Assembly: GCA_030378005.1 (NCBI GenBank)
Contig: JAUCGF010000083.1
Span: 19,035-83,034, forward strand
DNA: 64,000 nt
Reading direction: 5' to 3'
DNA from: Desulfococcaceae bacterium HSG9
Lineage (GTDB): Bacteria; Desulfobacterota; Desulfobacteria; Desulfobacterales; JAUCGF01
Every line of letters starts with the position of its first letter. The stretch's first letter is position 1. Both the position numbers and the translations under genes were made by a program. Below are positions 2,884 to 62,421 of the stretch, in pieces. The notes under the pieces are model-generated. The model saw only the letters and a list, made by a program, of their open reading frames with translations, did no database searches and was not told where the DNA came from.

Positions 2884-3002
2884 ATAGACTGTCACATATT
2901 AAATTTCAGAAAGATTGTTCATAATCTTTGAGTTTTACCCAAGCATTTTTGAAATTATTTAGGTGACTGTCTATAATTGCGATTTTGATATGTACCTTAT
3001 GT

Positions 3003-41000: not shown

Positions 41001-41131
41001 CTAGTGTTGTGTCAAGTTTAAGATGACGAGTGAAAATCAGGAGTGCAAACTTCAGTTTGCAGCTTTTGGAGCGTTTTGGCAAACTGAAGTTTGCACTCCT
41101 ACCCGTCAGCTAAATGTTGACACAACACTAG
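41001..41131. repeat. Palindromic element with 15-bp perfect terminal inverted repeats
   Basis: Outer ends CTAGTGTTGTGTCAA (41001-41015) and TTGACACAACACTAG (41117-41131) pair perfectly. Inside, GGAGTGCAAACTTCAGTTTGC (41040-41060) pairs with GCAAACTGAAGTTTGCACTCC (about 41079-41099), the core seen at 22586 and 18199. The right end contains the TAG stop (41128-41130) of the GlmS-like gene. No coding capacity. Confidence 0.9.
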
Positions 41132-44100
41132 CGCTTATGCGAAGGCGCACTCACTCGTGCAACGATCAATTCGGCAACTTTTTCAGCCGAACGCCCGAAT
41201 AATTCGCGCACATCAATCAGATTGAGATGTTCGTCGCGCCATTGAACACCGGTTTCCTGCACAATATTGGTTATATTTTCATACTTGCCGCCCAGTGCGC
41301 TGATTTTATCCGTTAACGCAATATTGTCTTTAAAAGCGATATGGTGTAAAAGGATATATTCAATAATATTCGGTGTTTTGGGAGAAGCGGAAAAAATCGG
41401 AATAATAATGATACTGCGGTCATCTTTACGTCCGATACCGATAAAGACATTGCCTGAGCGTACGATTATTTTTTTTGTGCCTTTTAATTTGCTATCGCCC
41501 TCCACGCGCGAAGTTAACGGTTTTAATGTGCCTTCCTTATTCATAATGTGAATTATGGTCTGCTCAGTGGTTTCTCCCAACAAATTCAATCCGGCGACAC
41601 GGTAAAGGATTGAACCTCGAATTTGAGCGATAATACGTTGGAGGTTCTGAACCACCAAAATATTCCGGTTGGTCATTTGGGCAATGCTGATATCGCAGGC
41701 ATCCAACGAATCAAACAGAATACCTTCCATTTTAGAGATAATCCGGCTGGTGCCCACCGTTACTGTTTTGGCCTGATGTTTAATGGCGTCCACCGGCCGT
41801 AACATCCGATTAATCGCTTCTCCGGTGCATTCAAACAGGGTGTCCAGCATATTGAGCGCGGTTCCCTTTTTGCCAAAATCGAATTCAAAATCGGTCATTG
41901 GCAACTTGCCGGATAAATATTTTAAGAGCAGAGTCAGGTCGGATGCTTTAGCGATATTCACTGGAAAACGCTGTTCTGATTTGATCGACCTGAATTCATT
42001 GTAAAAACGGACAATTTTTTCACGAAACGCTTCTTCCAGAATCACCTCATAAATATTCATACCGCTAGCCGAATACTCATCCACCATACGACGAATATCT
42101 TCCTGAAAGCGGTATAGCAACTGAGAACCGCTATTGATGGACAAAGCGGCATAGTAACCCCAAATATGGCCTGCCAGCGTATTCACAATCGGAGCCAAAT
42201 GTTCACTGACTGCGGGAACATGAAAAATATCGGCAGAGTATGGATCGAAACGCTTTTCCCCCTCATCGACAATAACAATAGGTGTGGCCTTGTGCGCATG
42301 AAAAATGGCGGTGTCTTTTATAATATCGCCAATGACTGTTTCACGCGCGCCGGCAGCGCATACCATAATCAAGGGTTCCGCAGACAAATCAATATGTTTT
42401 TTGTCTTCTACGAAATCCGATGAAAGGGTTTTGTAACAGAGTTCGCTTAACTTAATACGGATTTCATCAGATGACGCCTTATTGGGGCCGCTACCCACTA
42501 CAGCCCAGTATGTTTTATCCGCCGCCAGACGGTGCGCCGAACGCTTGATCTGTCCCTGAATAGCCAAAATGCGCCGCATCTTATCAGGAAGCGACAATAA
42601 TTCTCTGATTTCATCGGTAATAAACTGAACTCCGCGTCGTCCGGTCAGTTGTGCCATATTCAGACCGAGCAGCGCTCCGGCCACTATTTGGGAATAAAAC
42701 GCCTTGGTTGATGCCACTGACATTTCAATATCACGACCGCTGCTGGTGTACATAACGCCGTCTGCTTTGAATGTAATATCAGAATCCCGGCGGTTGACAA
42801 TCGCCAGCGTGTGAGCGCCGCGTTGTTTTACCATATCAACAGTACGGTTGGTGTCTGTGGTGGTTCCGGATTGGCTGATTGCTATGACCAAAGCATCCGC
42901 CATGCTTTGTTCATCATCGCCGAGCTTAAAGCCACTCATTTCGGATGCTTTTAAGGCACTTACCTGAATACCCGGATCATTCATATAGTAGTCAAAAATA
43001 TTGGCGCACGCCAAAGCGGCCACACCGGCAGTTCCCTGACCGATAAAAAAGATGCGCCGGATTTTAGTCACCGTGGCATCTTCTTGCAACGCATCACAAA
43101 TAGAATCTGGAAAGGTCGTTTTATCCAAGGTGACAAGATACCGATCTTTCTCATCAAGTTTGACTTTCCAGCTATTTTCCAGTGTTTTGGCCACAGATTC
43201 AGGAGCTTCAGAAATCTCTTTCAAAAAATAGTGTGCATAGCCCTGGCGATCAATATCACGCGACGTGATATCCGTCAGTTTAACATCGCTTTCTGAAAGT
43301 TCAATAGGCGTGTTATCATAGTAAAATGTTTTTATACCCGTTAGATCGCCGCCGCCTTTCTGATCAAGGATAAAGATTTGACCTTGAACAGGTCCCTGCG
43401 GTCCCTGGAATATTTTTTCACCGTCCATTTTAAGATAACGGGATGTTTCTTCAACAAATCCATATACTTCCGATGCAGGCATATAATGATCGGGGGCCAG
43501 TCCGATAAAAATAGCCTGACCGCTGCCTTTTTGGGCTAGGAATATTTTACCCGGAGCCAAGTCAGTTTGCATGGAAATTGCATGAGAGCCTTTGAAAGCA
43601 TTCACCGCCTGACGAAACGCCTCTTCAATATCGACACCGCTATTCAAATACTTTTTGATTTGAAGCGGAATAATTTTGGTGTCAGTGGTGATCGCTTTAT
43701 CAATCAAGCCTCCCTCTATTTCGAAATCAGCTTCATAATCTGCTTTCAATTCGATGTAATTATCAATATCACCGTTAAGGCAAACGTGAATGATCGGCTC
43801 ATCAGAAGTGCTCTGCCGTGTAATGCTATCAACCGGATGACAATTTGGTTCGGTGATTTCGCCCACAGATGCCCAGCGCGTATGCGCGCTGACCGTAAAA
43901 TAGCGGTAAGCGGAGCTGGCTAACAGCCCTAACAAAGGGTCAGTTTTGATCTGATTGCGTAAAAACCGAATATTATCTCCCAAACTGCCAACAGCATTGG
44001 CGACCTTATAAACCAGAGATACGGAGATACATGCGGCGCCTTCCTGATCTTCGACTTTACGGAAATTAACGCAATTATTCATTAAAATCGGCTGGTTTCT

Positions 44101-44769
44101 GCGCGCATCCAACTGCTCTTCCTGTTGGTTGTCTGCAAGTGCCGCCATGACAAATTCAAATTCAGACTCATCAAGGACGAACAGCAGGGAAATACCGGCA
44201 GAATCGCGTCCTCTGACTTCTAACCGGTCAATACTGTTCAGCACTGCGTTAATATGGCGGTATATTTTAATCAACTCAAAAGTGGGCGCTAAATTGGCAT
44301 ATCCGATCAGTTCATTGATCTTGGTGCAATTATCCAAGATTTCCCAATTGATACGCCAGGCACTGTCTTTTAACATTTCGATACGCTGCGAAATCGTCGT
44401 AACAGTTTCAGAATTAAGGCGTCCCATTATCTGTGGTAAAACAGATTCTTCAGTTTCGATGATTTTGGTAATTCGGTCGGCCAATTGGGTCAGTTTAGCC
44501 TGATATTCGCGGTGATGAAATACTTTATAAAACAGCAGATCGCTTTTTAAACTGACCACGGTTTCACAAAGAGCGTCAATGTGATCAGCACCGCCTAAAC
44601 AGTCTGAACATATCTGCTCTTCATTTCCCAAGCTATCTCCCGTTTTTCTATATTCGGCGCAACCGTTTTCTTCAATACGCGTGATCATTGCGTCTAAAGC
44701 ATCAATATCGGGATAAACGTCAGCTATCTCTTTTGTATGAATTGCAACAATTCCGGCAAGTCCGCACAT
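41128..44769 (-). CDS. Outsized GlmS-like glutamine amidotransferase/SIS protein (1213 aa)
   Basis: The N-terminus MCGLAGIV gives the Cys2 nucleophile of a class II amidotransferase. About 170 residues are then inserted before the normal continuation, DRLEVRGRDSAGIS (about residue 188). Glutaminase blocks HTRWASVGE and NGDIDNY follow. Two SIS domains are clear: FFIGQGTAGVAA with AISQSGTTTDTNRTV (about 573-720) and YWAVVGSGPN with SSDFVEDKKHIDL (about 753-890). A further ~300-residue tail has no match I know. GlmS is normally ~610 aa. It would make a sugar phosphate amine. It starts 4 bp after the KdnB-like gene. Confidence 0.8.
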   Translation of the reverse strand: MCGLAGIVAIHTKEIADVYPDIDALDAMITRIEENGCAEYRKTGDSLGNEEQICSDCLGGADHIDALCETVVSLKSDLLFYKVFHHREYQAKLTQLADRITKIIETEESVLPQIMGRLNSETVTTISQRIEMLKDSAWRINWEILDNCTKINELIGYANLAPTFELIKIYRHINAVLNSIDRLEVRGRDSAGISLLFVLDESEFEFVMAALADNQQEEQLDARRNQPILMNNCVNFRKVEDQEGAACISVSLVYKVANAVGSLGDNIRFLRNQIKTDPLLGLLASSAYRYFTVSAHTRWASVGEITEPNCHPVDSITRQSTSDEPIIHVCLNGDIDNYIELKADYEADFEIEGGLIDKAITTDTKIIPLQIKKYLNSGVDIEEAFRQAVNAFKGSHAISMQTDLAPGKIFLAQKGSGQAIFIGLAPDHYMPASEVYGFVEETSRYLKMDGEKIFQGPQGPVQGQIFILDQKGGGDLTGIKTFYYDNTPIELSESDVKLTDITSRDIDRQGYAHYFLKEISEAPESVAKTLENSWKVKLDEKDRYLVTLDKTTFPDSICDALQEDATVTKIRRIFFIGQGTAGVAALACANIFDYYMNDPGIQVSALKASEMSGFKLGDDEQSMADALVIAISQSGTTTDTNRTVDMVKQRGAHTLAIVNRRDSDITFKADGVMYTSSGRDIEMSVASTKAFYSQIVAGALLGLNMAQLTGRRGVQFITDEIRELLSLPDKMRRILAIQGQIKRSAHRLAADKTYWAVVGSGPNKASSDEIRIKLSELCYKTLSSDFVEDKKHIDLSAEPLIMVCAAGARETVIGDIIKDTAIFHAHKATPIVIVDEGEKRFDPYSADIFHVPAVSEHLAPIVNTLAGHIWGYYAALSINSGSQLLYRFQEDIRRMVDEYSASGMNIYEVILEEAFREKIVRFYNEFRSIKSEQRFPVNIAKASDLTLLLKYLSGKLPMTDFEFDFGKKGTALNMLDTLFECTGEAINRMLRPVDAIKHQAKTVTVGTSRIISKMEGILFDSLDACDISIAQMTNRNILVVQNLQRIIAQIRGSILYRVAGLNLLGETTEQTIIHIMNKEGTLKPLTSRVEGDSKLKGTKKIIVRSGNVFIGIGRKDDRSIIIIPIFSASPKTPNIIEYILLHHIAFKDNIALTDKISALGGKYENITNIVQETGVQWRDEHLNLIDVRELFGRSAEKVAELIVARVSAPSHKR

Positions 44770-47479: not shown

Positions 47480-49087
<1,608 letters not shown>

Positions 49088-49923: not shown

Positions 49924-52596
49924 TCATTGTCCGGTGCGTACTAAACGCACGTAGTCGTCGTAATCGATGGAGTGGCAGTAGACGTAGCCGTCGCCGAAAT
50001 CGACGTACCACGCCATCCCCGACGAACCTCTATCAGAACTCCAACAGTATCGTTGTTTTTTATCAAATACCGAACTGATATACAGACCACTGCCTTGCCT
50101 TGTTTCTGTCATCAGGGACGTCAGCTCGTCTGCTGTGGGGAGTCGCCAATCATTATAGCCGGCAAAATTGTCAATGTTCAGCGTTTTGACATATTTCTGT
50201 GCTGCTCTGTAGTTCAATTTGGATGACCCGGCCTGCTGCCACATCAAACCGGTGGCATTGTCTTTAATGACCAGACCGTTTTTAATCTTTTGAAAGCGGT
50301 TCGATGTAATGGGAATGTATTGTCTCGGACGCCAATTTTCATCAAGTTGGAATACGTCTTTAAAATTATTCCTTGAAACCGTTTTGGGTTCAGAACGTCG
50401 CGGATGAGTGACTTTCCCTTGACCTGGGAGCAGGAGAAGCCGGAACCCTATGTCGTCGAGCCGGATGACACGGCCGGTCCTGTCGCGTTGCGCCGTCCGG
50501 CATCTCCCGGCCGAGGAGTCCCATGACCCGCCGCGGAGCACTCGAGCCACACCTTTTTGCGGACCAGTCGGATCGGTTATAACTGCATCTTCCGGATAAC
50601 CTCTGTACCTATCCTGACACCACTCCCACACGTTGCCGTGCATGTCATATAATCCCCAGGCATTTGGTTTTAAACTGGCTACTGGCAATGTTTTTCCACG
50701 ATATTTGCCTTTGTCACATCCGGTTAAAGGAGATTTTCCATTATAATTCGCCTGATCGGCAGAAAGGCATTTCCCAAAAGCGAACGGCGTCAGCGTCCCC
50801 GCGCGGCAGGAATACTCCCATTGCGCTTCGGTCGGCAGATGATATTGAGTGCCTTTTGCATCACTATTCAGCTTTTCGATAAACTTCTGAGCATCATTCC
50901 AAGAAACATTCTCAACCGGACAATCATCACCGCAATCTTTAAAACGGGACGGATTTTTGCCTGTCACCTTTTTCCACTGTCCTTGGGTCACTTCAGTGGT
51001 TTGAGAATAAAATCCCCGGCTTAACACCACTTTATGCAGCCTTTCATCGCTACTACGTCCGGGTTCGTCTTTCGGGCTTCCCATCATTAACTCTCCCGGC
51101 GGAATATAGACAAACTTCATACCCAGAGAATTGATCAAAAGCGGTTTGCCGTTCATGCTTTTTTCATGTACGGTTTTTATTGTTACAATAATCGGCTCCG
51201 GTTTGACAGCCATATAGACACAAGTGGCAAAGGTTAGCAAGGTGATTGTGACGATAGCAATGCGAACCTTGCCGGATTTGATGCGACTTAGCGCCAATGC
51301 CAGCAATAGCGTAAAGAAAGTGGCAAGTTTCGAAAAAAAAGACTTCTTTTGCGGCGCAGGCGGAGTTACAGGAACCGGTTTGACACGGCTGCGAATTGTT
51401 TTGGGAGGAGGCTTGGGTGTGGTCGGCCGAGGCGTCGTCGATTTCCTATGCCGGGCCACTTTAGCTGCGGCTGCTTTGCCGGCGGCCATATATTCACTGA
51501 GCGCTTTCCAACGGCCTTTTCCTGGTTTACGCGGTTTGACTGGCTTGATTTTTTCGACTTCAGCAGCGGGGCTTTCAATCTGATCGGCTTCATATTCTGT
51601 CACCTGGCCGCTTTTCAACGCCAACGCCCATTCAATGACGGACTTGAAATCGGGCATCGGGTCCGATTTTTCCGGCAAAACCAGCCAGTCGGTTATCTCC
51701 TGAGACGCGCCGATTTTTTCGATTGCGTTTATTTCAAGCGGATGCAGCGAACAGGCTTCGACCAGATGTGATGCCAATGCCCGGATGTGAGGCGTTTCCG
51801 ATTTAAGTCCGCTTTGAATCAATTCGCTTTGTTCTGGGTTCTTATAATCGACCTCTTTTAACAGCAAGCGTCGGTCATCGTGAAGATTTTGCCAAAGTTC
51901 GGGTGTGATTATGGAAAGTTGATAAAGAATCGAAATCAGCGCGAAATCATCAATTTTATTATTGAAATGCGTCTTGTCACGCAAAGGATGCTGGTAATTG
52001 CGCAAGCCCATTTCACAGGGGGGTTCATCTTTAAGTAACGGCACAAACATGCCGTCATAGTCGATCAGCACCAGTTTGTTGTCATCGCGCACCAGGATAT
52101 TGCCTTCCTGGAGATCGTTATGCCCCATGTTCCATTCTTGCAGTGTTTTGACGATTGTGAACAAATCACCTGCAAAATGTGGCGCACATTGGAAAATACC
52201 GTCATCCGCCAAGTCCTGCTCGATGGCGGCGTCCAATTGAAGGCCGCGTCCCCATTCCATCACCACAACCGGATAAGGTGTGCCTTTCACCTTAAAACCC
52301 TCATGCACATAGTGAAAATCGGCCATAAAGGGAAATTGGGTGATTTGCAAAGTTTTGTGCAGCGCTTCATAGCGCTCAGCGCGGTTTTTCACATCACGGG
52401 TGAAAACCTTGAAAGCGTATTCGCGTTTGTTTTTATCACGAAATTTGAAGATGGCTCCGAAACCGCCCACAAACATGAAGGGATAGCCGCGCGGGTTCAG
52501 AAAAATTTCCAACGATTCGCTTTGAAAGAAAGGAATATTGAAATTATTTTGGTTGACGATTGCGTTTTGGTAGTCGCGTAAAGAAGGATATTGCAT
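49924..52596 (-). CDS. Membrane receptor-like kinase A: kinase-TM-FGE-DUF1566, candidate hypervariable C-termini
   Basis: Start ATG 52596 (MQYPSLRDYQN) follows AAAAGGG and is shared by all three paralogs. Kinase domain about 20-260: glycine loop VGGFGA (43-48), Lys63 in YAFKVF, catalytic HNDLQEGN (159-166), metal-binding Asp179 in DYDG. A Lys/Pro-rich linker follows, one membrane segment (about 442-463), then an FGE-sulfatase-type domain (about 490-725, PTEAQWEYSCRAG, MHGNVWEWC, RGGSW) and a DUF1566 domain (about 770-890, ATGLMWQQAGSS, YNDWRLPTADELTSLM). With no signal peptide, the kinase is inside and both lectin-fold domains outside. Both end in candidate DGR variable regions. 890 aa. Confidence 0.85.
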   Translation of the reverse strand: MQYPSLRDYQNAIVNQNNFNIPFFQSESLEIFLNPRGYPFMFVGGFGAIFKFRDKNKREYAFKVFTRDVKNRAERYEALHKTLQITQFPFMADFHYVHEGFKVKGTPYPVVVMEWGRGLQLDAAIEQDLADDGIFQCAPHFAGDLFTIVKTLQEWNMGHNDLQEGNILVRDDNKLVLIDYDGMFVPLLKDEPPCEMGLRNYQHPLRDKTHFNNKIDDFALISILYQLSIITPELWQNLHDDRRLLLKEVDYKNPEQSELIQSGLKSETPHIRALASHLVEACSLHPLEINAIEKIGASQEITDWLVLPEKSDPMPDFKSVIEWALALKSGQVTEYEADQIESPAAEVEKIKPVKPRKPGKGRWKALSEYMAAGKAAAAKVARHRKSTTPRPTTPKPPPKTIRSRVKPVPVTPPAPQKKSFFSKLATFFTLLLALALSRIKSGKVRIAIVTITLLTFATCVYMAVKPEPIIVTIKTVHEKSMNGKPLLINSLGMKFVYIPPGELMMGSPKDEPGRSSDERLHKVVLSRGFYSQTTEVTQGQWKKVTGKNPSRFKDCGDDCPVENVSWNDAQKFIEKLNSDAKGTQYHLPTEAQWEYSCRAGTLTPFAFGKCLSADQANYNGKSPLTGCDKGKYRGKTLPVASLKPNAWGLYDMHGNVWEWCQDRYRGYPEDAVITDPTGPQKGVARVLRGGSWDSSAGRCRTAQRDRTGRVIRLDDIGFRLLLLPGQGKVTHPRRSEPKTVSRNNFKDVFQLDENWRPRQYIPITSNRFQKIKNGLVIKDNATGLMWQQAGSSKLNYRAAQKYVKTLNIDNFAGYNDWRLPTADELTSLMTETRQGSGLYISSVFDKKQRYCWSSDRGSSGMAWYVDFGDGYVYCHSIDYDDYVRLVRTGQ
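49951..50007 (-). other. Candidate DGR variable region, kinase A DUF1566 domain
   Basis: Nineteen codons lie between the invariant TGG (50008-50010) and the invariant 14-bp word GTGCGTTTAGTACG (49937-49950 in complement). All 19 end in C or T. Compared with the copy at 54971-55027, most codons differ at positions 1 and 2 while GTC, TTC, GGY, GTC and TAY stay fixed, as expected if AAC/AAT template codons were randomised at A. Confidence 0.75.
50446..50520 (-). other. Candidate DGR variable region, kinase A FGE domain
   Basis: Twenty-five codons follow RGGSW and precede GFRLL. Adenine is scarce, with GC content clearly above the flanks. 14 of 25 codons end in C or T and several others are AGG-, CGG- or GGG-like. 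This suits a different template (AAC plus AGG codons) from the one for kinase C. The evidence is weaker than for the DUF1566 copies. Confidence 0.55.
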
Positions 52597-52672
52597 TGTT
52601 GCGGCCCTTTTACATTTTTTCCTTTTGATGAAGGATGCCAAAAGGTTGCATCTGAAACTCATTTTTTATACA

Positions 52673-53443
52673 TCAATACCACCATTTGTAAAGAATTTTA
52701 TCCATTTCAGTCAGAGGTTCTGTCCAAAACGGGTCTTTTTTAATAAACCGGCTCCATACCTTGAGCGTACAAATATCAATTCGATTTTTATTGAGAAATT
52801 TTTCAATAACCCGTTCATCCGGTTGCTCAAGTCTGCGGAAATAGAGTTCGATTTGATGGAAATAATCATCTGCCGAGTTCAGATTGTATGATGACCCTGT
52901 CCGATCATAAACCCCGTGGCAATCTTCCAAACACGAATCCGTTATGATGTTGCGGAGGGATTTTTCAACACGCGGAAGATCGAGCAAGACTTCGGGAATA
53001 TCATGCGTTTTCAGCAATTCGATTGTCCTTTCAATCACGCTGGGATGCCGGTACTCTTCGTAAGCAAAGGGCATGAGGCTGTTTGATAAAGAAAGAGGAA
53101 GGGGCTTGGGGCCTGCCACGATAAAGATATGATCCTTTTTAGCGTGATAGGCCTGAACTTTCCAGGAGTACTTGTCAATCACACTGCCATTTTTTAAGTG
53201 AACAGGTGTTTTTGTATAATAGCGCAATACTCGGAAAGGCAAGGCACAGGGAAAAGCGATTTTCCGTATCAGCGGTTCTGATAAAAATAAAATATGTCCG
53301 GGAATAACAGCCCAATATACTCCAAAAAATGTGAGAATGAGATAATAAGGCCCCCGAGGCGGAGCATCCGAGGCATGACAAACAAGCCCGGTTATTACCA
53401 TAATAATGCCAAGCAGGGCGTGAAGAGGTTTATCTGCATTCAT
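52673..53443 (-). CDS. Membrane protein of unknown function
   Basis: From ATG 53443, which follows GGAGAG, the protein has 256 aa, with two membrane segments (LHALLGIIMVITGLVCHA and YYLILTFFGVYWAVIPGHILFL) followed by a soluble domain of ~190 residues. The frame runs upstream to 53575 but that part is coded by a perfect inverted repeat (53482-53561), so it is not part of the gene. No family recognised. It lies between kinase A and a methyltransferase gene. The first 75 bp upstream of kinase A overlap its 3' side. Confidence 0.65.
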   Translation of the reverse strand: MNADKPLHALLGIIMVITGLVCHASDAPPRGPYYLILTFFGVYWAVIPGHILFLSEPLIRKIAFPCALPFRVLRYYTKTPVHLKNGSVIDKYSWKVQAYHAKKDHIFIVAGPKPLPLSLSNSLMPFAYEEYRHPSVIERTIELLKTHDIPEVLLDLPRVEKSLRNIITDSCLEDCHGVYDRTGSSYNLNSADDYFHQIELYFRRLEQPDERVIEKFLNKNRIDICTLKVWSRFIKKDPFWTEPLTEMDKILYKWWY

Positions 53444-53481
53444 CTTGTACTCTCCATATTTCCATTCCGATAAAGCAATGA

Positions 53482-53561
53482 TGTAGGTCGGGTTAGCGAG
53501 AGCGTAACCCGACGGTAGAGACTGTTTCTGTCGGGTTACGCTCTCGCTAACCCGACCTACA
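53482..53561. repeat. Perfect inverted repeat, TAGGTCGGGTTAGCG family
   Basis: Two 32-nt arms (53482-53513 and 53530-53561) are exact complements around a 16-nt loop. The arm word TGTAGGTCGGGTTAGCG is found widely in bacterial genomes as a dispersed palindrome. It lies between the two genes at 53443 and 53585 and causes a false N-terminal extension of the former. Confidence 0.9.
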
Positions 53562-53584
53562 GAAATGGCTTCCATGCGCTCAGA

Positions 53585-54526
53585 TTACACGTTACATATC
53601 CTTTTGGCAATTGCGGTAATATGAGCAGAATCAGACCCGCAACAACCGCCTAAAACTTTCAGGCCGAAGCGATTATGCAAAGCAATCATGGAAGCGCTAA
53701 ATTCCTCTGGGTCAGAGGTGTCAAGATAAGCTAAATTATCCAATTCATCAGGACTTTTTGAAGATGTATTGGCTTGAAAACCCAGAAGCCTGTCAGTTAT
53801 CATTTCTGAAAATTTAATTTCTTTGGCCATTGCCTGCTCAAAAATCGTCGGATGAACACAATTGACCATATAAAACAGCGGTTGCGAATCTATTTCGGAA
53901 TCAATTAATTCAATCGCTGCATGAAGCGGAGTTCCGTCAAGAATTGTCCCATCAGGTTTGATTACAAAACTTAAAATGTATGGTATTTTATGGGATGAGA
54001 TTGTCGAAGCGATTCCATAAGCTTCGGAAACGGCCGGCAAAGTGGCTACTTTGATAAAATCGACATCACTTTCCGCTAAGAGTGCCACTTGCTCTTTATG
54101 AAATAATTCCGCCGCCACTTTTGAAAGCGCCTCTTGAGGACGATAAGCGTCACCCCTGCAAGCCATCATCCCGCCAATAAAAATAAGTTCGGAATATTCT
54201 GAATAACTCTTCCGAATCTCTTTTAGAAAATTGACACAATCTTTGTTGATATTTTCATATTTGCTGAAAACCGATTGTTTAATTCTTTCAGGATTTGCCC
54301 GCCAAGTAGGCGCCAAACTTAACATGGGCAAATTATATCTTTTGCCTATATCAAGATATTCCATGTAAATTTCTTTCAAAACCGCTTTTCCTTTTGAATC
54401 ATAAATCAATCCTGAATGGCAAATATGCGGGTCTAAATTGACTGAAGGGTGTCTGTTAATTCTTTCAACCACGCTGCCTTCGGTTAATAAAACCGTGGAC
54501 GCGGCAATCATATTTTTAAAATTCAT
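53585..54526 (-). CDS. Homocysteine S-methyltransferase family protein
   Basis: The 313-aa protein has the zinc-binding Cys motifs of the family: VNCVHP in the middle and GGCCGSDSAHI at the end. The N-terminus MIAASTVLLTEGSVVERINRHP fits the TIM-barrel start. Such enzymes move a methyl group from S-methylmethionine or a related donor to homocysteine. It sits between kinases B and A on the same strand, and its link with them is unclear. Confidence 0.85.
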   Translation of the reverse strand: MNFKNMIAASTVLLTEGSVVERINRHPSVNLDPHICHSGLIYDSKGKAVLKEIYMEYLDIGKRYNLPMLSLAPTWRANPERIKQSVFSKYENINKDCVNFLKEIRKSYSEYSELIFIGGMMACRGDAYRPQEALSKVAAELFHKEQVALLAESDVDFIKVATLPAVSEAYGIASTISSHKIPYILSFVIKPDGTILDGTPLHAAIELIDSEIDSQPLFYMVNCVHPTIFEQAMAKEIKFSEMITDRLLGFQANTSSKSPDELDNLAYLDTSDPEEFSASMIALHNRFGLKVLGGCCGSDSAHITAIAKRICNV

Positions 54527-54943
54527 TGTGTCTTCCTTTTCATTGAATAAGTTTATTTTAAATTTCTGTCATTTAATTTTTTCATCGCACTGCATGACAA
54601 AAGGTCACTGCTTTTAATTTTGCCTCGCTCTTTCAGGCTGCCTTCATCTAACGCTGAAAGCAGTTTGCACTTTGTATTTTCATTTAGTCTGACTTTAATT
54701 GTCTGAATCAGAATTTATCGGATTTTAGACCCGATTTTAAAAAGGGTCAGAATTCTGTTCATCCTTTAATTCTGCTAATTCTGATTCAGACATTCTTAAC
54801 GTTTCAGCTTTACGCTTGATACATTTTTTTCTGTCAACTGTTAAATGAAGGATGCTGAAAAACGCAAAAAATTGTCGCGAGCAGGGGGAAATTTTCCCCT
54901 GCACCCCTGAATTATCAAATAATTCAAATGACCAAAGAATCTG
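54527..54943. other. Intergenic region, 3' flank of kinase B
   Basis: No gene is seen. About 180 bp next to the kinase (54763-54943) match the 3' flank of kinase A. The rest contains AT-rich sequence that should hold the promoter for the methyltransferase gene. Confidence 0.5.
54881..54902 (-). terminator. Terminator-like hairpin after kinase B
   Basis: Arms GCAGGGG and CCCCTGC around an AT loop, followed on the minus strand by CTCGCGACAATTTTTTGCG. It is the duplicate of the hairpin at 49862-49882. Confidence 0.65.
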
Positions 54944-57529
54944 TCATTGTCCGGCGCGTACTAAACGCACATAGCAGCCGCTGCCGAAGCTGAAGTAGGT
55001 GACGCTACCGAGGTGGAAACTGACGTCCCACGCCGACCCCGACGAACCTTTTACTGTGTCAGAACTCCGGCACCACACTTGTTTTCTATTAAAAATTGAG
55101 CTGAAATACAGGCCGCCGTTTTGCTTTGTTTTTGTCAATAGAGACGTCAGTTCGTCTATTGTGGGCAGTCTCCAATCATCATAGCCTGCAAAATTGTTTC
55201 TGTTTAGTTTTTTGACATATTGCTGGGCCGTTTTGTATTTCATATATTTGGATGATCCGGCCTGCTGCCACATCAAACCGGTGGCGCGGTCTTTAATTAC
55301 CTGGCCGTTTTTAATCTTTTGAAAACGGTTCGTTGTAATTGGAACGTATTGTTTTGGACGCTTATTTTTATCAAGTTTGAACACTTCTTTAAAATAATCA
55401 TGAGAAACCGTTTTGGGTTCAGAACGTCGTGGATGAGTGATTTTTACACGGAAGGACGCAACTGGCACCAGCGTCGGTTCAGGCATTTCAACATTCTTTT
55501 GACGTTCCTTGACGGGAACGTATTGTCCGGTTCGTACTAAACGCACATAGTAGTTGAGGCTGAGGCTGTGGTAGTAGTGGACTTCGCCGCGGTCGAAAAG
55601 AACGTCCCACGCCAACCTCGACGAACCTCTATCAGAACTCCAACACCACCGTTGTTTTTTATCAAAAATCGAACTGATATACAAACCACCGTCTTGCTTT
55701 GTTTGTGTTATCAGGGACGTCAGTTCGTCTATTGTGGGAATTCTCCAATCATGGTAGCCTGCAAAATGCATTTTAACATATTTCTGTGCCGCTCCGTATT
55801 TCATATACTTAGATGACCCGGCCTGTTGCCACATCAAACCCGTGGCATGGTCTTTAATTACCTGGCCGTTTTTAATCTTTTGAAAACGGTTTGATGTAAT
55901 GGGAACGTATTGTTTAGGACGTCTTTTTTTATCAAGCTTGAATACAACTTCACACTCATTCAATGAAACCGTTTTTGGTTCAGATCGCCGCGGATGAGTG
56001 ACTTTTACATGGGATGACGCAACCGGTGTTGACGTCGGTTCAAGCATTTCAACACTCTTTTTACGTTCCTTAATAAGAAAAAATGCTGATAGCACCAAGG
56101 TCAGTATAACGATTACAGTAAGAACAATGTGAAACAAAAGGCGAAAGAATCGGAGGAGTTTAGAGAAGAAGGAATTGATTGCATCAAGGACAGTGTTAAA
56201 CACCGCTTCAATACGATTTAGTGACAATGCCAATAGCAACGTGAAGAAAGTGGCAAGTTTCGACAAAAACGACTTCTTTTGCGGTGCGGGCGGAGTTACA
56301 GGAACCGGTTTGACACGGCGATGTACTGTTGTTTTCGGAGGAGGCTTGGGTGAAGGCGGTTCAGGCACAGCCGCTTTCCTTTGCCGCGCCGCTTTGGCTG
56401 CGGCCGCTTTGCCGGCGGCCATATATTCACTGAGCGGTTTCCAACGGCCTTTACCTTCTTTACGCGGTTTGACGGGCTTGATTTTTTCGACTTCAGCAGC
56501 TGGGCTTTCAATCTGATCGGCTTCATATTCCTTCACCTGGCCGCTTTTCAAAGCCAGCGCCCATTCAATGACGGACTTGAAATCGGGCATCGGGTCCGGC
56601 TTTTCCGGTAAAACCAGCCAATCGGTTATCTCCGGAGACGCGCCGATTTTCTCGATTGCATTTATTTCAAGCGGATGCAGCGAACAGGCTTCGACCAGCA
56701 TACCGGCCAAAGCCCGGACATGCGGTTCTTCCGCTTTCATCCCGTTTTGAATCAAATCGCTTTGTTCGGGATTTTTATAATCGGCCTCTTTTAACAGCAG
56801 GCGTCTATCATCGTGAAGATTTTGCCAAAGTTCGGGTGTGATGATAGAAAGCTGATAAAGAATCGAAACCAGCGCGAAATCATCAATTTTATTGTTGAAA
56901 TGCGTCTTGTCGCGTAACGGATGCTGGTAATTGCGCAACCCCATTTCACAGGGGGGCTCATCTTTAAGCAAAGGCACGAACATGCCGTCATAGTCGATAA
57001 GCACCAATTTGTTGTCATCGCGCACCAGGATATTGCCTTCCTGGAGATCATTATGCCCCATGTTCCACTCTTGGAGCGTTTTGACGATTGTAAACAAATC
57101 GCCTGCAAAATGAGGCGCGCATTGGAAAATACCGTCATCGGCCAAGTCCTGCTCGATGGCGGCGTCCAACTGAAGGCCGCGTCCCCATTCCATCACCACG
57201 ACCGGATAGGGCGTACCTTTCACCCTGAAACCTTCATGCACATAATGAAAATCGGCCATAAAGGGAAATTGGGTGATTTGAAGGGTTTTGTGCAACGCTT
57301 CATAGCGTTCAGCACGGTCTTTCACATCACGGGTGAAAACCTTGAAAGCGTATTCACGTTTGTTTTTATCGCGGAATTTGAAAATTGCTCCGAAACCGCC
57401 GACGAACATAAAGGGATAGCCGCGCGGGTTCAGAAAAATTTCCAGCGATTCGCTTTGAAAGAAGGGAATGTTGAAATTGTTTTGGTTGACGATTGCGTTT
57501 TGGTAGTCGCGTAATGAGGGATATTGCAT
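54944..57529 (-). CDS. Membrane receptor-like kinase B: kinase-TM-DUF1566-DUF1566
   Basis: ATG 57529 starts the shared MQYPSLRDYQN; about 75 bp upstream also match kinase A. The kinase half (about 20-260) keeps HNDLQEGN and DYDG and is nearly identical to A and C. A membrane segment (about 460-484) is followed by two DUF1566 domains (about 555-665 and 735-861), each opened by a THPRRSEPKTVS linker and each with ATGLMWQQAGSSKYMKY. Each ends in a variable stretch before YVRLVR. No FGE domain. 861 aa. Confidence 0.85.
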   Translation of the reverse strand: MQYPSLRDYQNAIVNQNNFNIPFFQSESLEIFLNPRGYPFMFVGGFGAIFKFRDKNKREYAFKVFTRDVKDRAERYEALHKTLQITQFPFMADFHYVHEGFRVKGTPYPVVVMEWGRGLQLDAAIEQDLADDGIFQCAPHFAGDLFTIVKTLQEWNMGHNDLQEGNILVRDDNKLVLIDYDGMFVPLLKDEPPCEMGLRNYQHPLRDKTHFNNKIDDFALVSILYQLSIITPELWQNLHDDRRLLLKEADYKNPEQSDLIQNGMKAEEPHVRALAGMLVEACSLHPLEINAIEKIGASPEITDWLVLPEKPDPMPDFKSVIEWALALKSGQVKEYEADQIESPAAEVEKIKPVKPRKEGKGRWKPLSEYMAAGKAAAAKAARQRKAAVPEPPSPKPPPKTTVHRRVKPVPVTPPAPQKKSFLSKLATFFTLLLALSLNRIEAVFNTVLDAINSFFSKLLRFFRLLFHIVLTVIVILTLVLSAFFLIKERKKSVEMLEPTSTPVASSHVKVTHPRRSEPKTVSLNECEVVFKLDKKRRPKQYVPITSNRFQKIKNGQVIKDHATGLMWQQAGSSKYMKYGAAQKYVKMHFAGYHDWRIPTIDELTSLITQTKQDGGLYISSIFDKKQRWCWSSDRGSSRLAWDVLFDRGEVHYYHSLSLNYYVRLVRTGQYVPVKERQKNVEMPEPTLVPVASFRVKITHPRRSEPKTVSHDYFKEVFKLDKNKRPKQYVPITTNRFQKIKNGQVIKDRATGLMWQQAGSSKYMKYKTAQQYVKKLNRNNFAGYDDWRLPTIDELTSLLTKTKQNGGLYFSSIFNRKQVWCRSSDTVKGSSGSAWDVSFHLGSVTYFSFGSGCYVRLVRAGQ
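54971..55027 (-). other. Candidate DGR variable region, kinase B second DUF1566 domain
   Basis: All 19 codons between TGG (55028-55030) and the invariant GTGCGTTTAGTACG word (54957-54970) end in C or T. Against the kinase A copy, the first two codon bases differ at most positions while the third stays pyrimidine. Confidence 0.75.
55547..55606 (-). other. Candidate DGR variable region, kinase B first DUF1566 domain
   Basis: Twenty codons lie between TGG (55607-55609) and the same 14-bp word (55533-55546); 19 end in C or T, the exception being GAA. It is one codon longer than the other two copies. Confidence 0.7.
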
Positions 57530-57698
57530 TGTTGCGGTCCTTTTACATTTTACCCTTTGATGAAGGATGCCAAAAGGTTGCATCTGAAACTCAAACAGGC
57601 ACACGACCGGATTGATAATCTTCTATCGTATTTTGTCCCTCCGCCCTCTGTACGGCGGCAGCACTCAATTCCGCGCGTAGTGCCTTCTCCAGTTTGGC

Positions 57699-60600
57699 TC
57701 AATCTTGACCTGGTAATGACATCACGAGGCGCACGCCGGTACTGCTATCGCTGTCATCCGGGTGACTGGGGAAGCCGCGAGAGGCGCTGCGACAACCACT
57801 GGCGTGGTAGTACCAGGAACCGCCGCGCATACGTTTCCCTCTGTTAGAAGGGCCGACCGGATCCGTAACCGCATCTTGAGGATAGTTATTATAAGACCCG
57901 CCGTCCTGACACCACTCCCACACATTGCCGTGCATATCATATAATCCCCAGGCGTTTGGATTAAAACTGGCGACCGGCATTGTTTTTCTTCGAGATCTCC
58001 CCTTGGTGCATCCTGATAAAGGATTACCGTTATAATTGGCCTGATCAGCGGAAAGGCATTTTCCGAAAGCAAACGGTGTCTGTGTCCCGGCGCGACAGGC
58101 ATACTCCCATTGCGCCTCGGTCGGCAGACTATATCTGGTGTTTTTTGCATCGCTATTAAGCTTTTGGATAAACTTCTGAGTATCATTCCAAGAAACCATC
58201 TCAACCGGACAATCATCACCGCAACCTTTAAAACTGGACGGATTTTTACCCATCACCTTTTCCCACTGCCCTTGAGTAACTTCGGTGGTTTGCATGTAAA
58301 ATCCCTTTGTTAAAATCACCTTGTGCAGTCTTTCTTTGGAATAACGGGCCCGTCCTTGTTCATATTTCGGGCTGCCCATCATAAACACACCCGGTGGAAT
58401 ATGAACAAACTCCATACCCAGGGAATTTACTAAGCGCGGTTTATCTGACGTATCATATTCATGTACGGCCTTTGTTGTTAACACGACCGGTTCCGTTAGT
58501 TCTTTTTTAACCTGCGCTTTCAACGGGATTGCTTCTTGGGGCTCCGGTTTAAGCGGTGCCTGTAATGACATCACGAGGCGGACACCTATATAGTTAAGGC
58601 CTCCCCCCGCGCCATTAGTAGAGCTACTGTCGCTACGACAAAAACTGGCATGTGCGTGCCAGGAACCGCCGCGTAAGATCCTATGAAAGCCAATAGAAGA
58701 GCCAACCGGATCTGTAACGGTACCTTGTTGAAGATAGTGATCGTCCCGATCCTGACACCATTCAGACACATTGCCGTGCATATCATACAAACCCCATTGA
58801 TTAGGTTCAAGACTGGCCACGTCAATTGGTTTTTTACGGTATTTGCCTTTGGGACAGCTCTGCAACGGGTGGCTACCATTATAATTCGCCTGATCTGTCG
58901 ACAAACATCTCCCGAACGCAAACGGCGTCCGTGTTCCGGCGCGACAGGCATACTCCCACTGCGCTTCCGTCGGCAGTCTATATTTGGTGTTTTTTTCATT
59001 GCGATTAAGTTTTTTGATAAATTTCTGAACATCATACCAAGAAACACTCTCAACCGGGCAATCATCACCGCAACGCCTAAAAAAGGACGGATTTCCTCCC
59101 ATTATCTTTTTCCATTGCCCTTGGGTCACTTCGGTTGTTTGCATGTAAAATCCCTTGCTTAAAATCACCTTATGCTGCCACACATTCGCATTAGAAGCGG
59201 TCATAAACTCGCCGGGCGGAATGTAGACAAACTCCATGCCCAGGGAATTTTTGAATTTCGGCTTACTAACGCGATTGTTTTTAGGTTCATGTTCAGGCTG
59301 TGCCTTTAACGGTGTTGCTACTTGAGGCTTGGGTTCAGATCGCCGCGGATGAGTGATTTTTTCAGGTTTAAGTTTAATAAGAATACAGGCGCAAGTGGCA
59401 AAGGTCAGCAAGGCGATTGCAATAACGACAAAGCGAAATGTTAATTTGATGCGGCTCAACGCCAATGCTGTTAATAACGTGAAAAAAGTGACAAGTTTCG
59501 AAAAAAAAGACTTCTTTTGCGGTGCGGGCGGAGTCACCGGAGCCGGTTTGACACGGCTGCGAACTGTTTTGGGAGGAGGCTTGGGTGTGGTCGGTCGAGG
59601 CGTCGTCGCTTTCCTCTGCTGGGCTACTTTTGCGGCGGCTGCTTTGCCGGCGGCCATATATTCACTGAGCGGTTTCCAACGGCCAGCCCCTTCTTTACGC
59701 GGTTTGACGGCCTTGATTTTTTCGACTTCAGCAGCGGGGCTTTCAATCTGATCGGCTTCATATTCTTTCACCTGGCCGCTTTTCAAAGCCAGCGCCCATT
59801 CAATGACGGACTTGAAATCGGGCATCGGGTCCGGCTTTTCCGGTAAAACCAGCCAGTCGGTTATTTCCGGAGACGCGCCGATTTTTTCGATTGCATTTAT
59901 TTCAAGCGGATGCAGCGAACAGGCTTTGACCAACAGTGCAGCCAAAGCCCGGGCATGCGGCTCTTCCGCTTTCAGCCCGTTTTGAATCAATTCGCTTTGT
60001 TCGGGATTTTTATAATCGACCTCTTTTAGCAGCAGACGCCGGTCATCGTGAAGTTTCAGCCAAAGTTCGGGTGTGATGATGGAAAGTTGGTAAAGAATCG
60101 AAACAAGGGCGAAATCATCAATTTTATTATTGAAATGCGTCTTGTCGCGTTCAGGATGCTGGTAATTGCGCAAGCCCATTTCACATGGAGCTTCATCTTT
60201 AAGTAGCGGCACAAACATGCCATCATAGTCGATCAGCACCAGTTTGTTGTCATCGCGCACCAGGATGTTGCCTTCCTGGAGATCGTTATGACCCATATTC
60301 CACTCTTGCAGTGTTTTGACGATTGTGAACAGATTGCCTGCAAAATGGGGCGCGCACTGGAAAATACCGTCATCGGCCAAGTCCTGCTCGATGGCGGCGT
60401 CCAACTGAAGGCCGCGTCCCCATTCCATCACCACGACCGGATAAGGCTCACCTTTCACCTTAAAACCTTCATGCACATAATTAAAATCGGCCATAAAGGG
60501 AAATTTGGTGATTTGCAAGGTTTTGTGCAGCGCTTCATAGCGTTCAGCGCGGTCTTTCACATCACGGGTGAAAACCTTGAAAGCGTATTCGCGTTTGTTT

Positions 60601-60764
60601 TTATCGCGGAACTTGAAGATGGCTCCGAAACCGCCGACAAACATAAAGGGGTAGCCGCGGGGGTTGAGGAAAATTTCCAGAGATTCGCTTTGAAAGAAAG
60701 GAATATTGAAATTATTTTGGTTGACGATTGTGTTTTGGTAGTCGCGTAGGGATGGGTATTGCAT
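57699..60764 (-). CDS. Membrane receptor-like kinase C: kinase-TM-FGE-FGE
   Basis: 1021 aa from the shared MQYPSLRDYQN. The kinase has VGGFGA (43-48), Lys63, HNDLQEGN (159-166) and Asp179. A Lys/Pro-rich linker and a membrane segment (about 438-460) are followed by one ITHPRRSEP linker and two FGE-type domains (about 505-735 and 778-1021). Each has NSLGMEFVxIPPG, TTEVTQGQW, LPTEAQWEYACRAGT, MHGNVxEWCQD and RGGSW, and ends in GVRLVMSL after a variable stretch. It is closest to the PP2C gene and heads the kinase series. Confidence 0.85.
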   Translation of the reverse strand: MQYPSLRDYQNTIVNQNNFNIPFFQSESLEIFLNPRGYPFMFVGGFGAIFKFRDKNKREYAFKVFTRDVKDRAERYEALHKTLQITKFPFMADFNYVHEGFKVKGEPYPVVVMEWGRGLQLDAAIEQDLADDGIFQCAPHFAGNLFTIVKTLQEWNMGHNDLQEGNILVRDDNKLVLIDYDGMFVPLLKDEAPCEMGLRNYQHPERDKTHFNNKIDDFALVSILYQLSIITPELWLKLHDDRRLLLKEVDYKNPEQSELIQNGLKAEEPHARALAALLVKACSLHPLEINAIEKIGASPEITDWLVLPEKPDPMPDFKSVIEWALALKSGQVKEYEADQIESPAAEVEKIKAVKPRKEGAGRWKPLSEYMAAGKAAAAKVAQQRKATTPRPTTPKPPPKTVRSRVKPAPVTPPAPQKKSFFSKLVTFFTLLTALALSRIKLTFRFVVIAIALLTFATCACILIKLKPEKITHPRRSEPKPQVATPLKAQPEHEPKNNRVSKPKFKNSLGMEFVYIPPGEFMTASNANVWQHKVILSKGFYMQTTEVTQGQWKKIMGGNPSFFRRCGDDCPVESVSWYDVQKFIKKLNRNEKNTKYRLPTEAQWEYACRAGTRTPFAFGRCLSTDQANYNGSHPLQSCPKGKYRKKPIDVASLEPNQWGLYDMHGNVSEWCQDRDDHYLQQGTVTDPVGSSIGFHRILRGGSWHAHASFCRSDSSSTNGAGGGLNYIGVRLVMSLQAPLKPEPQEAIPLKAQVKKELTEPVVLTTKAVHEYDTSDKPRLVNSLGMEFVHIPPGVFMMGSPKYEQGRARYSKERLHKVILTKGFYMQTTEVTQGQWEKVMGKNPSSFKGCGDDCPVEMVSWNDTQKFIQKLNSDAKNTRYSLPTEAQWEYACRAGTQTPFAFGKCLSADQANYNGNPLSGCTKGRSRRKTMPVASFNPNAWGLYDMHGNVWEWCQDGGSYNNYPQDAVTDPVGPSNRGKRMRGGSWYYHASGCRSASRGFPSHPDDSDSSTGVRLVMSLPGQD
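57735..57812 (-). other. Candidate DGR variable region, kinase C second FGE domain
   Basis: Twenty-six codons follow RGGSW (TGG at 57813-57815) and precede GVRLVMSL; 25 end in C or T, with CCG the exception. The 19-bp stretch after it (57713-57731) is identical to that at 58562-58580. Residue pattern YYHASGCRSASRGFPSH fits randomised AAC/AAT codons. Confidence 0.75.
58584..58658 (-). other. Candidate DGR variable region, kinase C first FGE domain
   Basis: Twenty-five codons follow RGGSW (TGG at 58659-58661) and precede GVRLVMSL; 20 end in C or T. It shares the framing bases GCC AGY and TGY CGY AGC with the second FGE copy but differs elsewhere and is one codon shorter. Confidence 0.65.
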
Positions 60765-60880: not shown

Positions 60881-61639
60881 CTAAACAAAATACAAATCCG
60901 GTCGGGCTGTAAGGAAACAAACCGCGACATCGTCATTTTTCATTCCCTCGGCATTGCGAAAAGTATCGATAACTTCTTTAAAAGCCATATCATCCTTGCA
61001 TTGAAGCATCTTGAGCAACTTGTTCGGATGGTTGCCGGAGGAAACAGTTTTGAAAAGAAACTCGCTCAACGCATCGGTGGCCATAACAATCAGCTCGTCA
61101 GGCTGTGAACTGATTTCAGCCTGAGCGATTTTATAAGGCGTTTTGGCTTGCAACGCGGCTTTTGAGCGAATCAGGTCAGGGACGTTATTGAAATCCCGCA
61201 TCGCCTTGTAAGGAAAGGTGAACATAGGCTCACCGGCCCGGTTAAACACAAACAGATTGACATCTCCGACAGCGAAAAGCGTCAATTGCAGGGCGGTGTC
61301 AGCGGTTGCGTCCGTTTTTTGCACCAAGGCGGTCAGGAGCGTGGCGTAGCTGCCTTCCATCAGAAACTTTCTTAATGCCGATGGCCGGGTGATTTCAGGC
61401 TGAAATGATTCTCGAAGGTTCTCTAAACCGTCTTCAAAATGCTGTTCGGATTGGATCCAATCCGCTTCAAAATTATGGCAGAGATGCCGAGACCATTCCC
61501 GTGAAAAAACGCCGGTGCTGGCACCATCGGCCACGCGAATCAAAAGAGCGGCAGCACCGGCAGGGTTTACCGCAACGGCGTCTTCATTTTGAAAATCTTC
61601 CAGGCCGGCCTTGGGGGTTGTATAAATACGTGTTTTCAT
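60881..61639 (-). CDS. PP2C-family serine/threonine phosphatase
   Basis: The 252-aa protein has the PP2C metal-site pattern: NEDAVAV, LIRVADGAST (the DG motif), FAVGDVNLFVF, VMATDALSEFLF and NDDVAVCF at the end. No membrane segment is seen, so it acts in the cytosol. It starts 2 bp after the vWA stop, giving tight coupling. It would remove phosphates placed by kinases A-C. The PP2C-vWA-kinase combination is the TerY-P triad. Confidence 0.88.
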   Translation of the reverse strand: MKTRIYTTPKAGLEDFQNEDAVAVNPAGAAALLIRVADGASTGVFSREWSRHLCHNFEADWIQSEQHFEDGLENLRESFQPEITRPSALRKFLMEGSYATLLTALVQKTDATADTALQLTLFAVGDVNLFVFNRAGEPMFTFPYKAMRDFNNVPDLIRSKAALQAKTPYKIAQAEISSQPDELIVMATDALSEFLFKTVSSGNHPNKLLKMLQCKDDMAFKEVIDTFRNAEGMKNDDVAVCFLTARPDLYFV

Positions 61640-61641
61640 AA

Positions 61642-62421
61642 TTATCCTATCAAACGGGTGCCGATGTCGAAAAATTTGGAAAGATCGTCCGGCTGGGCGT
61701 TGAACATGTAGCCGCGTGCGTCATCCGGAACATGGCTGTAAGTCTCTCGCGCTCTTTGCAGAAAGCTATCCGGAAGAACAGCGGACATTTGAAACAGAGC
61801 TTTTTGATGTTTGTCTCCCACAGGTTCCAATGACGGAAAAATGATCACTTCGGACAGGTTGTCACCGATGTGGATATTCATAATAGCACAGGCGCCATCA
61901 TCGGTTTGCACTTTCGTGTGAATTTCCTGAGCCGTAGAAACCGGATCATCAGTCGTCCATTGTCCGTCACTTACATGCAACAGCACCGGCGGGAAACTGG
62001 CCGGATGCGCCTTTGCCCAACGCTTCAGAACGTCATAAGCCAAATTGAAACCGGCTTTCATATCCGTATTGACCTTTTGAGTGGGGTCTTCCAGCCAGAC
62101 CGGTTTTTCAATGGGAACGCCGTCAATGTCGCCTTGTTCCATTTTGAGCGGGTTATGGGCCAGGTCGATTATCGATTGAACCGGCTTGATGATTTGGGCG
62201 CCATCACCATAACCCAATATGCCGAGTTCGAAATAGGCTCGAATTTCAGTTCCTTTTTCACATGCAAGAATCACCTGATCAATGGTCTTATTGCACAAAC
62301 CGGCCAAAAAGGCTCCCCTGCTCATATTCGTGGAACCGTAAACTTCGCTCATGGAATAAGAACAGTCGAACAAAAAAAGAATCAAGGCCGGGTTATCCCG
62401 GCTGATTTCAGCTTGGTACAT
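61642..62421 (-). CDS. vWA domain protein, TerY-like
   Basis: The 259-aa vWA domain keeps the MIDAS metal site: DxSxS as FDCSYSM (about residues 18-24), a later Thr in VNTDMKAGF and Asp in HVSDGQW. It lacks a signal peptide. This fits TerY-like proteins that recruit partners in Ter-linked phosphorylation systems. ATG 62421 follows AAAGGAG. It lies 2 bp before the PP2C gene. Confidence 0.88.
   Translation of the reverse strand: MYQAEISRDNPALILFLFDCSYSMSEVYGSTNMSRGAFLAGLCNKTIDQVILACEKGTEIRAYFELGILGYGDGAQIIKPVQSIIDLAHNPLKMEQGDIDGVPIEKPVWLEDPTQKVNTDMKAGFNLAYDVLKRWAKAHPASFPPVLLHVSDGQWTTDDPVSTAQEIHTKVQTDDGACAIMNIHIGDNLSEVIIFPSLEPVGDKHQKALFQMSAVLPDSFLQRARETYSHVPDDARGYMFNAQPDDLSKFFDIGTRLIG

Follow-up and report, generated by a model that had tools for sequence, protein, structure and literature searches.

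Serine/threonine kinases fused to C-type-lectin (CLec) domains have been described in cyanobacteria as targets of diversity-generating retroelements (DGRs), together with remote variable proteins (PMC7517822), and kinase-lectin DGR targets are already known in that group. In Thiohalocapsa PB-PSB1, DGRs were reported in ternary and STAND conflict systems, with targets in trans (PMC10907252). DUF1566 and FGE are both known DGR target domains (PMC4159848, PMC6642488), as an earlier, sequence-only reading of the DNA studied here had stated. The present study concerns a 64,000-nucleotide stretch of Desulfococcaceae bacterium HSG9 (hereafter the window), which is positions 19035-83034 of contig C33 in assembly G000 and forms the end of that 83,034-base contig; the assembly is a 6.61-Mb draft in 197 contigs, 94.0% complete. 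Three kinase genes in the window, A, B and C, end in lectin-type domains. Judging from their sequence patterns, the DUF1566 ends of both kinase A and kinase B appear to be DGR variable regions, as does, with less certainty, the final FGE end of kinase C; they were probably rewritten in trans by a DGR whose reverse transcriptase (RT) and template were not found in the draft. The kinases are then probably remote DGR targets.

The kinases resemble the cyanobacterial fusions in joining a kinase to a C-terminal lectin fold that ends in a putative DGR variable region, and in having remote copies; unlike the HSG9 assembly, however, the cyanobacterial genomes contain RTs and templates (PMC7517822). 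The HSG9 kinases differ in turn by carrying two lectin domains each, by using DUF1566 besides FGE, and by having TerY and PP2C genes next door; neither "TerY" nor "PP2C" occurs in the main text of PMC7517822. HSG9 resembles Thiohalocapsa in having several dispersed targets, variable CLec domains in tandem within one protein, targets without an intact RT nearby, and carriers with NACHT, TIR and metallophosphatase domains, but Thiohalocapsa has nine DGR loci with RTs and has population data, and its ternary systems are MoxR/vWA/VMAP rather than a TerY-PP2C-kinase triad (PMC10907252). The TerY-P triad, as modelled in PADLOC, likewise sets a vWA protein (TerY), a PP2C phosphatase and a kinase side by side; in HSG9, variable lectin domains replace the C-terminal half of the STK_OB kinase, and there are three kinases in the window and a fourth on contig C65. 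The DUF1566 DGRs of IMG/VR contigs and human microbiomes have the same template register, TGGAACGTCAATTTCAACAACGGCAACGTC (PMC4159848). The IMG/VR elements also share the scarcity of C at second codon positions (14/672 A sites there, 6/179 codons in the blocks here). Both groups differ in being compact loci, with the RT beside template and targets, and in having another 3' side (PMC4159848). DGR lectin targets coupled to a TerY-P-like triad with tandem sensors were not found in print among openly licensed PMC papers, which is a weak absence.

The sequence-only reading had proposed six candidate variable blocks at the ends of lectin-type domains. These blocks, and the words conserved on their 3' side, are listed below by window position (NNY denotes a codon ending in C or T).

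49951..50007, minus strand: strong variable region, DUF1566 end of kinase A (19/19 NNY)
49937..49950, minus strand: conserved 3' word GTGCGTTTAGTACG of kinase A (position from gene offset)
50449..50520, minus strand: weak candidate, FGE end of kinase A (14/24 NNY)
54971..55027, minus strand: strong variable region, second DUF1566 end of kinase B (19/19 NNY)
54957..54970, minus strand: conserved 3' word GTGCGTTTAGTACG, second copy of kinase B (shared-word search)
55550..55606, minus strand: strong variable region, first DUF1566 end of kinase B (18/19 NNY; 19/20 with the next codon)
55533..55546, minus strand: conserved 3' word GTGCGTTTAGTACG, first copy of kinase B (shared-word search)
57738..57812, minus strand: likely variable region, last FGE end of kinase C (24/25 NNY; 25/26 with the next codon)
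58587..58658, minus strand: weak candidate, first FGE end of kinase C (19/24 NNY)

The coordinates and the counts of C/T-ending codons given earlier (19/19, 19/19, 19/20 and 25/26) were reproduced. Outside the blocks, the NNY background in the three kinase genes is 0.51, against which the binomial p is 2.7e-6 for 49951-50007, 2.7e-6 for 54971-55027, 5.3e-5 for 55550-55606 and 1.2e-6 for 57738-57812. Among 20000 simulations conditioned on the amino acids, the observed count was reached 51, 26 and 75 times for the last three of these and 1526 times for 49951-50007, so that this block by itself is not significant under the stricter test, whereas the ten genome copies described below, taken together, are. 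Four of the six candidates hold, and the other two FGE blocks are weak: p is 0.3 for 50449-50520 of kinase A, and for 58587-58658 of kinase C it is 0.0044, yet 7704 of 20000 conditioned simulations reached the count. The variable regions close CLec-type domains (FGE, Lcl_C) with a conserved 3' side, some of them at internal domain ends. A near-identical 3' side had also been claimed; within the window this is so, GTGCGTTTAGTACG being common to the three DUF1566 copies and CGCCTCGTGATGTCATTAC to the two FGE copies that kinase C carries, but genome-wide two of ten DUF1566 copies (the first on C2 and that on C174) have several synonymous changes there.

A search pattern built from the window copies, with N at the suspected A sites, matched 20 places in the assembly at up to three mismatches, versus 10 for a reversed control, and 11 versus 0 at up to two mismatches, a match on C115 looking like chance. 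Because the pattern was derived from the window copies, the recovery of paralogs is not in itself evidence for a DGR. Ten DUF1566 ends lie on six contigs (two on C2, three on C33, two on C76, and one each on C174, C65 and C166); a divergent eleventh copy, on C174, falls outside the search expression and is counted only where stated. Of the 179 codons in the ten copies, 157 have C as their third base. The codon use of the kinase genes, applied to these amino acids, predicts 58.2, and none of 20000 simulations exceeded 80. The residues K, E, Q, M and W make up 4/179 of the blocks versus 263/1000 upstream. Pairwise differences at codon positions 1, 2 and 3 are 0.48, 0.36 and 0.16 in the first 11 codons and 0.64, 0.60 and 0.07 in the last six, versus 0.30, 0.20 and 0.41 upstream (0.17, 0.14 and 0.23 over the last 40 aligned upstream codons). 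Changes thus fall on positions 1 and 2, as had been noticed from the window copies, with the third position nearly fixed, the opposite of upstream; this lower third-position divergence argues for an overwriting of the blocks more recent than the separation of the paralogs. As a negative control, the genome's remaining DUF1566 domains were considered: 24 loci divided into nine in the family, 12 without a recognisable end and three left, and since 38 of 58 codons in those three ends are NNC, they are not a clean control.

The changes were then compared with real templates of other genomes. The pattern TGGNNCGTCNNTTTCNNCNNCGGCNNCGTC matched 64 IMG/VR stretches, 42 of which hold a copy with A at at least nine of ten tested sites; in 38 of the 42 (38/64 overall), a Brt-like RT shares the locus with an A-rich template of the same register. 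Relative to the IMG/VR template, the ten HSG9 copies are changed at 80/140 A sites versus 8/120 free non-A sites, sites restricted by the search expression being excluded from the latter. The corresponding figures are 89/154 and 10/132 with the eleventh copy, and 26/42 and 2/36 for the three window copies. The non-A sites of the IMG/VR copies themselves are set by the search pattern, so their non-A count was not used. Within the order, 42 of 389 genomes gave a match to AACKTCAATTTCAACAACGGC at up to two mismatches. Thirty order-level loci were fetched, and six of them have a Brt match (L161, L166, L168, L181, L185 and L186), as has L140 of G001, a genome of the same genus as HSG9; DUF1566-type templates occur in five of the Brt-bearing order loci, and L185 and L140 carry another lectin type. 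Unrelated coding sequence accounts for many of the remaining matches. Against the template of genome G084 (L186), the ten-copy family is changed at 68/110 A and 6/90 free non-A sites. Four other order-level templates, which differ from the family at some fixed bases and were compared over nine codons with restricted sites included, fit less well (50-59 of 90-100 A, 22-44 of 170-180 non-A). The DUF1566 ends are altered mainly at template A, and the proposal of A-specific mutagenesis is borne out to that extent. Separately, the IMG/VR stretch L277 (3300035698_018074, 2990-4667) holds two same-register DUF1566 ends whose 3' side is nearly as in HSG9; no Brt match was found in the 6.7 kb of it that was searched.

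The FGE blocks were compared with a template from G001, which gave three Brt matches, on C561, C749 and C629. The RT frame on C561 runs off the contig end. On C629, a NACHT-FGE target with a variable end comes first, followed by a small open reading frame (ORF), an RT fragment containing YMDD and, last, a second, A-rich copy of that end; target and A-rich copy differ at 17/28 A and 1/88 non-A positions, with one gap. The small ORF is a putative HRDC-type accessory gene, and an accessory-like ORF of this kind gave a weak match on C121 of HSG9 (E 0.005). The C629 RT lacks its N-terminal part, and the A-rich copy (L142) is out of frame with the target owing to a single-base gap towards its 3' end. 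Measured against this template, the last FGE block of kinase C is changed at 11/17 A versus 15/49 non-A positions (p 0.02), the FGE block of kinase A at 14/25 versus 14/72 (p 0.0015) and the first FGE block of kinase C at 14/25 versus 29/72 (p 0.24). Outside the window, the fourth kinase, D, gives 12/25 versus 20/72 (p 0.085), and the end on C150 gives 23/25 versus 15/72 (p 2.7e-10). As the G001 template is foreign to these blocks, all such figures are lower bounds on the fit. Contig C617 of G001 (L143) also has a DUF1566 end of the present family, in a protein that presumably is kinase-like, and stops inside a second DUF1566.

Several observations weigh against the blocks being targets of a DGR in this cell. 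An RT and a template in the same genome were sought, and none was found in the draft assembly: no DGR RT was detected with RVT_1, Brt (E 1e-5) or a 12-RT order-level profile (E up to 10), and pattern searches gave no DUF1566-type template and none for two FGE types, both FGE patterns being narrow and also missing related copies. Since the DUF1566 copies vary in length (17-19 codons) and the 3' side of two of them is different, a single template would not suffice; two FGE blocks are weak; and pattern searches of G001, despite its RT pieces, gave no DUF1566 template of this kind. When 27 lectin ends were slid along the fetched stretches, no template appeared. The G001 template found just two variable ends in the assembly, on C33 and C65, and no template; the same search pointed to two places on C221 of G001. 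A search with a G001 RT piece returned no near relative of this species among the matches listed (best 120 of 1298). A match of a G001 RT piece in L153 is, on reading the letters, a short repeat. For a 94.0% complete assembly in 197 contigs, a missing RT or template neither refutes nor proves remote targeting. The only RT found in the assembly, a 557-residue protein at L001 1054-2727 on C91, was rejected as the mutator because it matches the UG34-type defence RT (PADLOC E 1.3e-169). An A-rich DUF1566 copy on C166 was rejected as a template, on reasoning from its letters, because it is without A where the other copies vary. A lectin end on C92 (L104 3899-4381) resembles the template of another DGR type in G001; it is out of frame, decayed and of another lectin type, and was likewise rejected. 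The two-contig genome of another relative within the order, G049, has 38 RT matches, mostly of equal score; a group II intron that is proliferating may be their source.

The absence of RT and template from 6.61 Mb might mean that a DGR wrote the blocks and that the lineage then lost both, the blocks now evolving in the ordinary way. The drifted look of two FGE blocks and of two DUF1566 3' sides, and the degraded copy of another lectin type on C92, fit such a history, but block third positions differ by only 0.07-0.16 versus 0.41 upstream, as expected if the blocks were reset after the paralogs split, and RT pieces occur in the same genus, one of them extending past the end of its contig; we consider this loss unlikely, though it deserves more weight than any other rival. 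Alternatively, the mutator could reside on a visiting phage or plasmid that uses the chromosomal lectin ends as its targets. IMG/VR contigs often carry DGRs of the same template register, and the two copies on L277 have nearly the 3' side of this genome; nevertheless, the IMG/VR templates examined have a different one and L277 itself gave no Brt match, which makes a mobile source quite improbable.

Finally, the blocks might owe nothing to a DGR: a ligand-binding loop could have been shaped by diversifying selection of the ordinary sort, together with gene conversion and codon bias. The residues that stay fixed (V, F, G, V, YVR) do belong to the DUF1566 family, similar patterns occur in many genomes of the order, 49951-50007 alone is not significant once conditioned on its amino acids, and the three DUF1566 ends outside the family are C-rich as well (38/58). 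Selection on residues, however, does not account for third bases that stay fixed next to variable positions 1 and 2, nor does it yield 80/140 versus 8/120 against an independent template, and this explanation, already disfavoured, strikes us as very improbable indeed.

According to the preferred reading, remote rewriting by a DGR, the RT and template may exist in the cell and have fallen into assembly gaps, as the loss of a G001 RT at a contig end would support, and rewriting may still be ongoing. Reverse transcription of a template RNA would introduce random bases at A, and the resulting complementary DNA would take the place of the block as far as the conserved 3' side; a chromosomal template would end like GTGCGTTTAGTACGC. 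Residues altered in this way would be expected on the ligand-binding face of the lectin fold. Because a hydrophobic stretch precedes them, the lectin domains may face outward, and external binding could then switch the internal kinase, set against PP2C and TerY.

The genes concerned are as follows.

49924..52662, minus strand: kinase A, with kinase part, hydrophobic stretch, FGE and DUF1566 (Pfam, PADLOC, hydropathy; Pkinase 25.0 bits, cut-off 31.7)
54944..57604, minus strand: kinase B, with kinase part, hydrophobic stretch and DUF1566 twice (Pfam, hydropathy; Pkinase 26 bits, below cut-off)
57699..60764, minus strand: kinase C, with kinase part, hydrophobic stretch and FGE twice (Pfam, hydropathy; Pkinase 29.8 bits, below cut-off)
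60881..61639, minus strand: PP2C-type phosphatase (PADLOC PP2C E 2.3e-24; Pfam PP2C_2 24.1 bits, cut-off 24)
61642..62421, minus strand: TerY-type vWA protein (PADLOC TerY E 5e-53; no Pfam match)

The minus strand thus carries the TerY-type gene, the PP2C gene and then kinases C, B and A, with an unassigned ORF and a homocysteine S-methyltransferase gene between B and A. TerY, PP2C and kinase genes are adjacent, as the TerY-P triad of PADLOC demands. All three window kinases score under the Pfam Pkinase cut-off; kinase A, the sole kinase run against PADLOC, matches STK_OB with E 1.1e-48. This match spans profile positions 1-283 of 562 and leaves the C-terminal half of the profile uncovered; the region of kinase A beyond it is the hydrophobic stretch and the variable lectin domains. 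The conserved start of kinase B lies about 25 codons inside its reading frame. The order of the lectin-type domains is FGE-FGE in C, DUF1566-DUF1566 in B, FGE-DUF1566 in A and DUF1566-FGE in D, on contig C65. Identity to B in the kinase part is 97% for D, 96% for A and 95% for C, and these parts differ pairwise at 44-68 of 340 third positions. Two metagenome kinases (P0005 and P0006; protein sequences), 94 and 92% identical, end in FGE with other variable ends. Eleven relatives follow at 53-57% identity, each of about 500 residues, and their precomputed Pfam lists show no lectin domain. A scan of genome contigs gave mostly FGE matches, 2 of 80 rows (L231 and L264, both cyanobacteria) extending to the kinase part.

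The TerY-P triad has been reported to be active against T7-like phages (PMC7699616). Homology to that triad is the ground on which we predict that the kinases are sensors of an anti-phage, TerY-P-like system, retargetable by a DGR that would alter their ligand specificity.

As for the surrounding genome, the host is likely a relative of sulfate reducers. The fumarate hydratase gene at 47480-49087 has its nearest named homologue in Desulfococcaceae bacterium HSG7 (Desulfobacterales; 99% identical). A 1213-residue ORF at 41128-44769 may encode an unusually long GlmS-type amidotransferase/isomerase.

Ten further proteins were tested for carrier domains. The carrier of the DUF1566 end is a kinase protein on C2, a TIR protein on C174 and a small protein on C166, while C76 has two carriers, a PKD protein and a pentapeptide protein that matches nSTAND3 weakly. 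The FGE carriers are metallophosphatase-NACHT proteins on C58 and C69, a KAP NTPase on C153, and proteins of C151 and C150 in which no other assigned domain exceeds its cut-off. Carriers of these kinds have been described in DGR-diversified conflict systems (PMC10907252). The last FGE domain has its best solved-structure match in the Treponema denticola variable protein 2y3c (E 1.4e-19). The structure model of a DUF1566 domain is poor (mean predicted local distance difference test score 57.6); against the PDB its best match was the C-terminal domain of Legionella Lcl (E 0.22), with none at E up to 0.001. More tentatively, and with doubt somewhat outweighing confidence, we suggest that a few DUF1566 and FGE templates serve a genome-wide receptor repertoire in trans. 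TerY-P-like kinases and TIR, STAND-like pentapeptide, NACHT and KAP proteins would then share template-drawn tips, an antibody-like pool of sensors of phage or non-kin mounted on different effectors, among them the anti-phage phosphorylation triad.

A survey that required an RT beside the target misses remote targets, by its own account (PMC8144416). The present family indicates that fixed third codon bases are enough to recognise remote DGR targets when neither RT nor template is at hand. If the reading is true, hypermutated lectin tips feed a kinase-phosphatase-TerY set of a reported anti-phage kind, and the proposed retargeting of bacterial immune sensors by DGRs would gain a defined, assayable output.

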